A DNA stretch of 64,000 bases from contig NZ_JHXU01000002.1 of the NCBI RefSeq assembly GCF_000687815.1, positions 1-64,000 on the forward strand, read 5' to 3'. The notes below the pieces were generated by a model, which worked only from the letters and a program-made list of their open reading frames with translations, was not told where the DNA came from and did not search any database. Shown here in pieces: positions 41,715-47,280 of this stretch. Made by a program: the position numbers and the translations under genes. Each line of letters opens with the position of its first letter. Positions within the stretch are counted from its first letter, which is position 1. This DNA comes from Mycoplasma elephantis ATCC 51980. Lineage in GTDB: Bacteria; Bacillota_I; Bacilli_A; Mycoplasmatales; Metamycoplasmataceae.

Positions 41715-42958
41715 TGAATATTCTTGAGGAACTAAAATTAAGAGGTATTTTTAAAGATATTTCCGATATAAACAAATTTAATAACCTTTCAAAAGGTGAT
41801 GGTGTTTATATTGGGTTTGATCCCACTGCAGAAAGTTTGCATCTAGGCAACTATATACAAATAACTATATTAAAAAGATTTGCGCAATATGGATTTAAGC
41901 CGTATGCTATTTTGGGCGGAGCCACAGGAATGATAGGAGATCCGAGTTTTAAAAATACTGAACGAGTTTTATTGGATAATGAAACTATACAAAAAAATAA
42001 ACAAAAAATTAAAAAACAACTTGAACTCTATGGATTGGATGTAATAGATAACTACTCTTGATATAAAGATATGTCTATTATTGATTTTCTTCGTAACATT
42101 GGGAAAATGATAAATATTAGTTATTTATTGGCTAAAGATTCAATTAAAACAAGAATTGAAAAGGGATTGAGTTTTACAGAATTCACATATTCATTATTAC
42201 AAGGTTACGATTTTACACATTTATATAAAACAAAAAATATTTACATGCAACTTGGCGGAAGTGACCAATGAGGAAACATAACAACAGGACTAGAAATGCT
42301 AAATAAAATTTACAACAATAATCACAAGGGGTGTGTAATTACAACAAATTTACTTACTGACGAAAATGGTAATAAGATAGGGAAATCACAAGGTGGTGGA
42401 GGATTATGAATTGATAAAAACCTATGTTCCCCATTCCATATTTACCAATACCTATTAAATATTCAAGACTCTAAAGTGGAATCGTTTTTAAAATGACTTA
42501 CATTTATTCCTGTTGATGAAATTGATTCTATTATAAGAAAATCAATGAACGAACCTTCTCTTAGATATGCACAAAAAATGCTTGCATTTGAAGTTGTAAA
42601 GGATTTACATGGTGAAAAAGAGGCAATTAAAGCCCAAAAAATAACAGAAGCTTTATTTGTAAATAATAAAGATATATTCAATTTAAGTGATAAAGATTTT
42701 GAACAATTAAGAGGAAGTCTACCTTTTTATACAATTCAAAAAAACTCAACAATTCAAGATGCTTTACTTGAAACAAAAATTGTTAGTTCAAAACGTGAAT
42801 TAAATGAATTTTTTAGAGACAAAACTATATTAATTAACAATAAAAATGTTGAAAATTTACAGAAAATGATTGATTTTAGTGAATTTAATAATAGGTTTAT
42901 AATTGTTAAAAAAGGAAAGAAAAAATATTTTATTTTAGAAAATAAAACCAACAATTAA
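41714..42958 (+). CDS. tyrS: Tyrosyl-tRNA synthetase
   Basis: 414 residues; ATG shares its A with the TAA of the ABC-F gene. HIGH motif is HLGNY (about 39), the tyrosine-binding [20 protein letters not shown] and QLGGSDQWGN are present, and the KMSKS loop reads KIGKSQGG (about 222). A C-terminal S4 domain (about 340-400) binds tRNA. No T-box leader is possible because of the overlap. Confidence 0.96.
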
Positions 42959-42972
42959 TGTTGGTTTTGTAT
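42945..42972. terminator. Bidirectional terminator between tyrS and the p69 gene
   Basis: AAAACCAACA, short loop, TGTTGGTTTT, straddling both stop codons. Confidence 0.75.
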
Positions 42973-44712
42973 ATATTTTTTCATATATGATGAACTTAAA
43001 TTTATGATAATAATCGATATTGTTGAAAACCAAATATAAGCAGCGGCTATATCAGGATGATAACTTTTAACATTATCCAATGATGTCCATATCATATTCC
43101 CAAAATTCATTTCTTCCCCCACAAACATACTGTATGTTATTGTATTTCTAAAAATTAACTCAAAATAAAAACTAAGTAATGAATAAAAATCTTTTTTAAT
43201 CGAAGGAAAGATAAAATTCCTAAAAATAAAATTATTAGAATACCCTTGCATTTTTAAATATGCTATTTTTTGTTCACTTAAATTATCAATTGTTTCAACA
43301 ACTTGTTTTATTAAATTTGTTGCTTCTTGAATACCTATTAAAATTATCAATAAAATAAATGGTGAATCAAATAATGGTTTAAAAATATAAAACATCACAA
43401 TAATTGGTATAGTTCTAATTAATACAAAAATGCAACGAGAAATAAATGGATAATAGTTATTATTAGTTAATTTAATACTTGCAAAACGGACAAATAATAT
43501 TGTTAATATTGCAACAATTACAATGCAGAGTATAGAAAATTCGAAACACTTTAATAACATTAGAAACGAATTTTTACTAAACTCTGTTGAATTTAAATTC
43601 AGGCTATTTCAATTCGGTTTAAATAAAGAGGTAACAAATAATTTAATTGCATTCATGTTATGAATAAGAAATTTTATATCTATTAAAACATAAATCGAAT
43701 AAACAATAATCAATAAAAAAAAGATAAATAAAACAATACTTCTAATATTTCTCTTTTTACTTAAGGATAAATATTTATTTTTATTTGACATATTTTCTTC
43801 GAAATTTATTTTCTTTGACTTTGCTTCAAATAAATATTTTTTAAAAATAATATTAATTATTTCTAAAAATATTATAAATGTTATTAAAACAAAAAGCGGT
43901 ATACCCAACTGTTTAAATTCTTCAGTTGAAGAATAACCTTTTTTCAAGAGAATTCCAATACCCGGTAATGATAATGCACTCAAAATTGAAGTTCATTTCA
44001 CATTAGATTCAAAAGAAAATAAAAACAAAGAAAAAAATTTATTTTTTGCACGCGACAATATTTCATCCCTAAATGCTTTATATCTAGAATTCCCTTGCAT
44101 CATTGAAATTTTGTATGCTTTTAAATCAATACTCTCAAGAAGTTCTATGTAGTATTTATGTAGTCATAATCATGTAAATCAAATATAAATAAATAATAAA
44201 CAAACCTCATTTCTAAATGTCATAGAAAAAATTCTAATAAATACCAATTCGGGAATTGCTCTTAGAAAAAGAATAAATAACTTTATAAAATATGCAAATT
44301 TTTTATTATTAATGTTTTTATAAGATAAAAATGATGTTATAATCGCTAAAATAAAACCTATAAATGTGCCAACCAGAGCATATTTAAAAGTTATATACAA
44401 ATACTTAAAACTTAAAAATCATAAATTATCATACTCGTAACTAAATGAACCTGTTAAAAAATTGCTATTTTTATCAAAACTAAAAATATTTTTTATACGC
44501 TCTCAAATTAATTCAAAATTGTTAAATCTAAAATTCCAATTTTGTAAAGCAAATAAAATTACAATAATTGCAACAAATAAAAAAATTAATAAACGTTTAT
44601 AAATAGGCAATATTTTTATATTCGTTTTCGCTTTAGGACTTTCAATAAAATATTTAAACAAATTTGAATTTAGTTTTACTTTACTTTTTGAATCATGTTT
44701 TCTAAATCGCAT
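42955..44712 (-). CDS. ABC transporter permease, p69/PhnE type (two fused permease domains)
   Basis: 585 residues with several UGA Trp codons. Two BPD_transp_1 halves, each with about five or six membrane spans: LFLRAIPELVFIRIF (first half, about 140) and VLIRTIPIIVMFYIF (second half) are the equivalent helices, and EAA-like loops (YKISMMQGNSRYKAFRDEI; IAYLKMQGYSNNFIFRNFIFP) face the ATPase. This is the p69 partner of the p37 system of M. hyorhinis. It starts 37 bases inside the ATPase gene. With the upstream riboswitch it is inferred to import thiamine or TPP. Confidence 0.9.
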
Positions 44713-45428
44713 ATGCTTATTCCTTCATTTTTTTTATTAAAAACAATATTTTTATTATTTAACACAATAATTCGGTCAAAAAACTCTAAAGCTAAATTTA
44801 AATCATGTGTATTCACAAGGCAAAGTATATTTTTCTCTTTTGTTAGTTTTTTTAAAATAGATAAAACATCTCTTGAAGTGGCATTATCAAGATTTGATGT
44901 TGGTTCATCTGCTAAAATTAGCTTTACATTTTTAACTAGCAACTTAGCAATTTCTACCCTTTGTTTTTGTCCCCCGCTGAGATCGCTTACTTTATAAAAA
45001 GATTTATCTAAAATATTTAAATCGTCAAGAATTGAAAAAATTTTAATTCGTTGTTCCCTTGTTAAATAGTTAATTAATTTAAAAATTTTATTTTTATAAT
45101 CATTAATTGATCTTTTAATGTTTAAATATACATTTTCTTCCTCAATTAAGCATGGTTCTTGTATTAGAAAACCTATTTTTTTAATTATATTTTTCCATTC
45201 TTTTTTAGTTAATAAGTCAATATTTTTATTGTTAAATAAAATACTACCTAAAGTAGGTTTTTTATTTCTAACAATTAATTTAAATAATGTGCTTTTACCA
45301 ACACCACTAGGCCCAATAATAGCCACCATTTCACCTGACTTAAATATGCAATTTATATTTTCTAAAATTAGATTATCTTTTTCTTTATATTTGAAACTTA
45401 AATTTTTTATTTCCAAAACTTCATTCAT
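44676..45428 (-). CDS. ABC transporter ATP-binding protein, p29/PhnC type
   Basis: 250 residues, no UGA. Walker A GPSGVGKSTL (about 39), Q-loop LIQEPCLIEEENVY (about 88), signature LSGGQKQRVEIAKLL (about 149), Walker B LILADEPTSNLD (about 169), and the switch His in NTHDLNLALEF. It powers the p69 permease. Six bases after p37 and overlapping p69. Confidence 0.94.
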   Translation of the reverse strand: MNEVLEIKNLSFKYKEKDNLILENINCIFKSGEMVAIIGPSGVGKSTLFKLIVRNKKPTLGSILFNNKNIDLLTKKEWKNIIKKIGFLIQEPCLIEEENVYLNIKRSINDYKNKIFKLINYLTREQRIKIFSILDDLNILDKSFYKVSDLSGGQKQRVEIAKLLVKNVKLILADEPTSNLDNATSRDVLSILKKLTKEKNILCLVNTHDLNLALEFFDRIIVLNNKNIVFNKKNEGISICDLENMIQKVK

Positions 45429-45433
45429 AATAC

Positions 45434-46720
45434 TTAATTTATTTCCGGAATATCGTTAACTAAATTTTTTAGGGATTCGGCTTGAATTTGTAAAAGTATA
45501 AATTTTTTAAATAAGTCTAAGTCAATTGTTTGAAATTTATTATAACCAGTATATAAACCATATGTATTTTCTTCAACCGATAGTTGCAACAATGTTTTTT
45601 GCAATATTTCAAGTTGTTTATTATTAAAATGTCTACGCGCTAAAACAACATCATATGGAGCAGGATTAGTCATTACCAAAACGCGAACCACATCATTTTG
45701 TTCATCATCGTAATTTTTATTATTTATAAAATTATCGGGCTTATATCATGAATTATTTCCTTTATTATTTAATCAATTCATTTCACCCTCAGCTGCAAAA
45801 CCAATTCTACAAGTAACATATCCTGATTTTTTTCCTAATGCATTTTTTGCATCATTACCTTTTATTATATGGTTGTTTGATGTATCAATTAATATTTCAT
45901 TTATTTCTTTAATTGTTTTATTAAAGTGACGCGCCATTAATGCTACTTGATATTTAAAAGCACTTGTTTTTGAAGTGTCTTTATAAACTAAATTATAAGA
46001 CAAAAATGTATTTAAATCTTTATCATTTCAACATTTTATTATTGATTCTCTCTCTTTTTTGTTTCCCGAAATATAAATAGCACCTCTATAAACATATGTT
46101 AGGTTTTTTTTATCATAAAAATTCGTATATTTAGAACCGTCAAAAATTAATTTATTGGGATACTTAACTCAATCAGGATACTCTAAATTATTTTCTTTGA
46201 ATCATTTTTCATTATTTTTAATCGCTAGCTTTCTTAATGGGTCAGTTTCTAACCCATTTTCATAATAAAAATTATCTTGTCCTTGCCACGAAAATTTTAA
46301 TGTACTTGTTTGTGCTACTGGTTTGAATTTTAAATTTGATTTTCAATTTTTATCTTCATTAATATATGCAAAATTAGCAACAAAATCACCATAACTAATA
46401 ATTGCAATATCTTGTTCTTTATTATTTGCCTTTAATTCATTAAGCATGGAAGTAGAATCTCCGTTAGTTTGTATTTCAAAACTTACGTCAGAATAATTCT
46501 TTGCTTCAATATCTTGATTTTTAATTTTATTAAAAGTTTCTGTTAATTTTTTTAAAAATTTTTCTTCTAAATTTGTATTTTTAAAACCATTATTAATTCA
46601 TTCATTTTTAATTGTAATTTTTTCATCCCATAAATCTTTATCCTCATTTGAACAACTTGTTGTTGCTAACAAAGGTAAAAATATTGATGAAAACACAAAA
46701 GGAACTGCTCTTATTTTCAT
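45434..46720 (-). CDS. p37: Substrate-binding lipoprotein of the p37 (Cypl) type
   Basis: 428 residues from ATG at 46720 after AAAGGAGATAA. Lipobox LLATTSC (Cys about 23). NWLNNKGNNSWY, TNPAPYDVVLARRHF and the bilobed binding-protein layout match p37 of M. hyorhinis, whose crystal structure holds thiamine pyrophosphate. Several UGA Trp. First gene of p37-p29-p69; a TPP riboswitch in its leader agrees with that ligand. Confidence 0.92.
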
Positions 46721-46724
46721 TTAT

Positions 46725-46830
46725 CTCCTTTGATAGCAAAGGAATAAAAAATTTAGCCAGAAGTTACGCATGAATTACCATGATCAACTTATAGGTATAA
46801 TCTCAGCCGTTAGGCACCCTTTGCTAATAG
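46725..46830 (-). promoter_or_regulatory. TPP riboswitch with Shine-Dalgarno switch controlling p37-p29-p69
   Basis: Minus-strand leader with the thi-box core: GGGTGCC, GGCTGAGAT, then a P4/P5 arm GATCATGGTAATTCATGCG closed by AAGTT/AACTT, and P1 (TTAGC 46827-46823 with GCTAA 46757-46753). Downstream, CCTTTG (46742-46737) can pair with CAAAGG of the Shine-Dalgarno (46732-46727). The aptamer's own 5' strand TTAGCAAAGG can instead pair with CCTTTGCTA. So TPP binding should free CCTTTG to hide the ribosome site: translational OFF. The core is canonical; the switch is my reading. Confidence 0.88.
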
Positions 46831-46849
46831 AATTATAAATTATAAATAA

Positions 46850-46873
46850 AAAAATAAGCAAAGCTTATTTTCT
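46850..46873 (-). terminator. Terminator of rpsO
   Basis: Minus strand AAAATAAGC, TTT, GCTTATTTTTTT including the rpsO stop. It separates rpsO from the TPP riboswitch. Confidence 0.75.
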
Positions 46874-47131
46874 TATTCCTAATTCTGCAATTAGTTTAAC
46901 ATATGAATCAAAATTTGTTCTCTTAAGGTATGCTAATAATGACTTACGTCTATTTATTTTGGCCATAAAACCACGTTTTGAATGATTATCTTTTGGATTT
47001 GCTTGAAAATGTGGTTTTAATGTCTCAATATCTTGAGTTAATAAAGCAATTTGAACTTCAATTGCCCCAGTATTTTTTTTGTTATTTCCGAATTTTTGAA
47101 CAAGTTTTGATTTTGTTGCTTTTAATAACAT
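46865..47131 (-). CDS. rpsO: 30S ribosomal protein S15
   Basis: 88 residues from ATG at 47131 after AAGGAGATATA; the in-frame ATG 24 bases earlier lies before this site. NTGAIEVQIALLTQDIETL and HFQANPKDNHSKRGF, then RRKSLLAYLK, are the S15 core that binds 16S rRNA. Confidence 0.96.
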   Translation of the reverse strand: MLLKATKSKLVQKFGNNKKNTGAIEVQIALLTQDIETLKPHFQANPKDNHSKRGFMAKINRRKSLLAYLKRTNFDSYVKLIAELGIRK

Positions 47132-47280
47132 TATATCTCCTTGTGTTACATTCATACCCTAGCAATAATTAAAAAAATTAAAACAAAGGAATGAAAACTT
47201 ATGTAATTAAATTACTATAATATTTTACTATAAATAAAATATGTTTTTTCAATTTTATATAGATATATATAATTTAATTT

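Follow-up and report, generated by a model that had tools for sequence, protein, structure and literature searches.

A probable translational TPP riboswitch of thiM-like, strand-exchange design in the p37 operon leader of Mycoplasma elephantis and its relatives

The leader of the p37 operon of Mycoplasma elephantis ATCC 51980 raises two questions: how could so short a stretch of RNA sense thiamine pyrophosphate (TPP) and control translation, and what does the 'phosphonate-type' transporter encoded behind it bring into the cell? The window analysed here is a stretch of 64,000 nucleotides, in which a first-pass annotation had read a clear thi-box core, three short competing segments and a link to p37. 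A local covariance-model search by E-value, suggested there as a check, bears out the core. An aptamer (THI box) of 86 nt at 46746-46831 on the minus strand, the strand that carries all leader features, the operon genes and the upstream gene, matches RF00059 over model positions 1-105, that is, along its full length, with 37.9 bits (E 4.4e-6). In a genome-wide search (E 2.3e-6), M. elephantis has no second RF00059 match. As this score lies below the Rfam gathering score of RF00059 (54.3), a default scan misses the aptamer; run at gathering score over the whole window, such a scan returned only tmRNA and SRP RNA and left the aptamer site empty. Two antisense Rfam matches at the site, OrzO-P (E 0.27) and Rev13 (E 0.47), were rejected as chance. 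The CUGAGA and GCGUA cores of TPP riboswitches hold TPP in the established structures, and both are intact here, as CTGAGA at 46801-46806 and GCGTAA at 46764-46769 (minus strand). The whole-aptamer match and the two conserved cores place the element in RF00059, and the observation of a TPP riboswitch in the p37 leader is thereby confirmed.

On the minus strand, the leader runs in the order TTAGCAAAGGGTGCC-aptamer-GGCTAA-ATTTTTTATT-CCTTTGCTA-T-CAAAGGAG-ATAA-ATG, ending in the p37 start codon at 46718-46720. The three competing segments are present as the first-pass annotation described them, and the constrained folds reported below agree with it. Segment A (TTAGCAAAGG, 46818-46827) provides the 5' strand of P1, in which TTAGC faces GCTAA (46753-46757), and alternatively may serve as an anti-anti-Shine-Dalgarno strand. 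Segment B (CCTTTGCTA, 46734-46742) can form a perfect 9-bp helix with TAGCAAAGG within A or, through its CCTTTG, a 6-bp helix with the CAAAGG of segment C, the Shine-Dalgarno (SD) sequence CAAAGGAG (46725-46732), over a 4-nt CTAT loop.

The position of the promoter bears directly on the role of segment A. A probable -10 box, TATAAT, lies at 46832-46837 (minus strand), with an alternative candidate at 46839-46844, and we predict a transcription start at about 46825, give or take a few bases. The box is also conserved in the leaders of relatives: among 101 representative leaders, the 12-position window just 5' of the GGG core contains a match to TATAAT at five or more of six positions in 95 (24-28 in control windows), and a perfect TATAAT in 71 (3 in the control). 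This conservation suggests that transcription probably starts at P1, which would place A at the 5' terminus of the message or close to it. With a -10 box so near, the start would probably lie at or inside TTAGC, and P1 may comprise only 3-5 bp. The earlier proposal that TTAGC is locked into P1 stands as regards its pairing with GCTAA, which forms in the aptamer-constrained fold, and is refined as regards the length of this helix. Upstream, an A+T-rich terminator-like hairpin (about 46846-46872) separates the p37 promoter from an open reading frame of 96 aa (46865-47155, minus strand), which we take from its sequence to be rpsO, the gene of ribosomal protein S15; the hairpin lies at the end of this gene.

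Strand exchange at P1 combined with masking of the SD is an established mechanism of TPP riboswitches of the E. coli thiM type (PMC10907184, PMC3280964), and we propose a similar mechanism here. Transcription would start at or just before segment A, and the leader would open with the 5' strand of P1. In the absence of TPP, TAGCAAAGG would pair with CCTTTGCTA, disrupting P1 and P2 and keeping B off the SD, and p37 would be translated. With TPP, the aptamer would close and hold A in P1/P2; the CCTTTG of the freed segment B would then pair with the SD and block the ribosome. As in thiM, one side of the aptamer P1 competes with a pairing that opens the SD, and ligand leads to a masked SD. The leader differs from thiM in its short P1 and minimal P3, in an alternative helix that probably draws on the extreme 5' end of the RNA, and in its target, which is an ABC importer and not thiamine salvage or biosynthesis. 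The mutually exclusive pairings that characterize the thiM type, aptamer and anti-SD on the one hand and anti-anti-SD on the other, were found in the folds, the accessibilities and the covariation. We infer both TPP binding by the leader and the sign of control. Sequence and comparison establish the aptamer, the segments, the covariation, the operon and the lack of a detected thiamine pyrophosphokinase (TPK). Very probably, this is a translational OFF riboswitch for TPP on the p37 operon.

Folding calculations are consistent with this switch. When the A:B helix is enforced, each base of the SD is unpaired with a probability of 0.83-1.0, apart from the last base for one of the assumed starts; enforcing the aptamer instead brings this probability down to about 0 at all but the last two bases. 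The predicted sign, TPP lowering translation, thus holds in computation. The forced-fold ensembles lie at -26.4 to -27.8 kcal/mol for the A:B state and at -22.9 to -25.4 kcal/mol for the aptamer state, about 2-3.5 kcal/mol apart depending on the assumed transcription start. Judging from the Kd values tabulated for TPP, 50-500 nM (PMC3280964), tight ligand binding could overturn such a gap. When transcription is assumed to start at AGC, the A:B state is about equal to a P1-less aptamer state. The unconstrained minimum free energy fold of a 143-nt stretch reaching into the gene (z-score only -1.2) masks the SD even without ligand, so that the balance of states is uncertain in detail. In the M. 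elephantis leader, SD accessibility is 0.77; blocking A by an unpaired constraint reduces it to 0.10, and foreign A strands of 7 nt reduce it to 0.21 on average. After dinucleotide shuffling of the post-aptamer stretch, an equally good A:B helix arose in 150 of 20,000 sequences (p 0.0075), an equally good anti-SD pairing in 606 (p 0.03) and both jointly in 22 (p 0.0011). For the M. elephantis leader alone, this test lends only moderate support to the switch.

It could be argued that transcription is the step mainly controlled, with termination at the B:SD hairpin and antitermination through the A:B helix. Many relatives indeed have a U run (GGAGTTTTTTT) after the masking hairpin, and in some paralogous leaders a plain ATATCC..GGATAT-U hairpin lies a long way from the start codon. 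The M. elephantis hairpin, however, covers the SD and is followed by AUAAAUG rather than by U; the sequence 3' of it, GGAGATAAATG, contains no U-run, which argues for control of translation rather than of termination. We therefore regard transcriptional control as improbable for this leader, and retain the translational switch.

The strong evidence for this switch comes from conservation and covariation in relatives. We searched 135 genomes of the family for RF00059 and for CypI/p37. The former was matched in 114 and the latter in 113, and the riboswitch is present in 108 of the 113 p37 genomes, including two (L197 and L198) recognized on closer inspection of seven that had shown no match. Only 68 of the 135 genomes have a match over the Rfam cut-off, so that in about half of the family the element goes unnoticed at the gathering threshold. 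Of 132 riboswitch elements in the family, 100 lie directly upstream of p37, and others lie before an ATPase or permease gene of apparently the same transporters. Two weak matches (L078, L079), located inside coding sequence and devoid of a thi-box, were dropped. The five p37 genomes without a detectable riboswitch (L192-L196, i.e. G070, G073, G083, G086 and G087) belong to a single genus; G070 retains a AAGGGTGC-like remnant upstream of p37, which suggests secondary loss.

Comparison of the p37 leaders, also proposed in the first-pass annotation, indicates that A, the 5' strand of the aptamer, and B, the anti-SD strand, covary in the family. For 101 non-redundant leaders, wider-order relatives included and near-duplicates removed, the mean A:B pairing score with the own partner was 17.66, against 14.11 (sd 0.27, max 15.16) in 20,000 between-species partner exchanges, a test from which relatedness among the sequences is only partly removed; 86 of the leaders lay above the additive expectation for their own pairing. 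The p37 leaders contain 46 distinct A 9-mers, of which 35 have a partner of at least 6 bp. At position -4, the A:B pair occurs as A-U, U-A, G-C and C-G, and at position -5 as A-U, U-A and G-C. The strands change in step, from TAGCAAAGG/CCTTTGCTA in M. elephantis to AGCAAAGG/CCTTTGCT in the congener G002, with TTGACAAGG/CCTTGTCAA, TTAACAAGG/CCTTGTTAA, TTATACAGG/CCTGTATAA, GTAAACA/TGTTTAC and others elsewhere. Over 76 leaders, the SD had a median predicted accessibility of 0.51 when free; this fell to 0.19 with A blocked and to 0.32 when the seven bases 5' of the core were taken from other species, but hardly moved, to 0.46, when other stretches of 13 nt were blocked. The fit is not universal: by accessibility, 52 of these 76 leaders dropped by more than 0.1 and none rose by more than 0.1, and by strict helix criteria 39 of 94 leaders display a clean A:B:SD overlap.

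These data also bear on whether the aptamer might be a relic that has lost TPP binding, its leader being retained for another reason. Such decay would fit the score under gathering, the short P2 with its G-U pair and the very short P3, which has 3 bp and a short loop. Yet both cores are intact, A and B are both kept with compensating differences from relatives, and the leader of G002 has the same architecture; we consider a relic highly improbable. A strand-exchange riboswitch of thiM-like design, in itself a known one, that recurs across the whole family is, by contrast, well supported by the comparison.

The genes behind the leader encode a p37-ATPase-permease importer. p37/CypI, an extracytoplasmic lipoprotein of 428 aa (45434-46720; PF06646, E 2.1e-44, 152.5 bits for a curated cut-off of 27), is followed by an ABC transporter ATPase of 250 aa (44676-45428; PF00005, E 5.8e-32) and a double ABC permease of 585 aa (42955-44712; two stretches of PF00528, E 2.1e-11), all on the minus strand and read with code 4. 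The link to a crystallized homologue is upheld: p37 matches M. hyorhinis p37/Cypl (PDB 3e78, 3e79 and 3eki) with E 1.6e-38, as a full-length although divergent homologue, and 3eki holds TPP (PMC6609329).

Does the transporter import TPP or thiamine? Two genes of the M. elephantis genome carry the TPP-enzyme domain PF02779, which implies a need for the cofactor. TPK was not detected by PF04263 in any of the 135 family genomes, M. elephantis included, nor by TIGR01378 in M. elephantis or the other family members tested, whereas 16 relatives in the order have it. Among 58 genomes, 27 carry p37 only, 16 TPK only, 15 neither and none both (Fisher p 3.9e-6), a non-overlap that reflects few independent lineages. 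Without a detected TPK in the family, TPP is favoured over thiamine as the imported form; the same argument from kinase loss has been made for JCVI-syn3A (PMC6609329). Together with the homology of p37 to 3eki, this genome context makes TPP the most likely substrate, and the switch would then operate as end-product feedback. The riboswitch could also function as described while thiamine or thiamine monophosphate is what enters through the transporter, TPP being made inside the cell. MG289 of M. genitalium, a p37 relative, has been reported to bind thiamine (PMC6609329, citing Sippel 2011), and its structure, 3myu (PMC6609329), also matches p37 (E 4.8e-13); moreover, a kinase other than the recognized TPK could still make TPP in the cell. 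Given that no TPK was detected in the 135 family genomes by PF04263 and that TPK and p37 did not co-occur in the 58 genomes, we rate import of a precursor as the less likely case, at perhaps one chance among several, and continue to favour TPP.

In several cases where the riboswitch occurs without p37 (L028, L061 and L144), the next gene encodes a ThiT-type thiamine transporter (PF09515). It is tempting to suggest, at even odds, that import of intact TPP by p37 has replaced thiamine uptake and TPK throughout the family, under a translational TPP switch whose 5'-terminal strand doubles as P1 and anti-anti-SD, and that lineages lacking p37 have instead brought ThiT under this riboswitch, in some cases together with an APH-type kinase. 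In p37-less relatives and in G008, an APH/choline-kinase-like protein is either fused to the product of a transporter-like gene under riboswitch control or encoded after it (L021:102-1460, L061:2778-3551, L063:625-1410, L149:12-893 and L064:2709-3374), and is a candidate replacement for the missing TPK. Behind the riboswitch of L144, a TENA/THI-4 family gene (L144:1197-1826) comes after the ThiT gene.

A TPP riboswitch between p37 paralogues, hence beside a gene of the same transporter family, was named in one sentence for Mycoplasma hominis (PMC4498124), without switch mechanism, distribution or covariation. A limited literature search found no paper on the mechanism or distribution of the TPP/p37 switch in mycoplasmas. 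As few regulators are known in these bacteria, a well-supported, family-wide metabolite switch should be useful. Its distribution among genomes independently supports a role of the 'phosphonate-type' p37 transporter in handling TPP, makes the choice between thiamine and TPP directly testable, and hints at uptake of the cofactor in finished form instead of plain vitamin B1.

TPP riboswitches also precede other genes in relatives. In eight genomes (L159, L172, L175, L176, L177, L074, L075 and L170), one lies upstream of BspA-type leucine-rich-repeat (LRR_5) lipoproteins, and several of these leaders have a terminator-like ATATCC..GGATAT-U hairpin after the riboswitch. Members of the Mycoplasmopsis bovis/agalactiae group (L164, L165, L166 and L168) carry a second TPP riboswitch before another lipoprotein; of these four lipoproteins, the two that were scanned, those of L164 and L168, match the Spiralin domain. 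Finally, a gene for a pyruvate-dehydrogenase-type E1 component (L062:2086-3210) lies directly 3' of a TPP riboswitch with no obvious anti-SD, an arrangement that would place a TPP-using enzyme under TPP riboswitch control.
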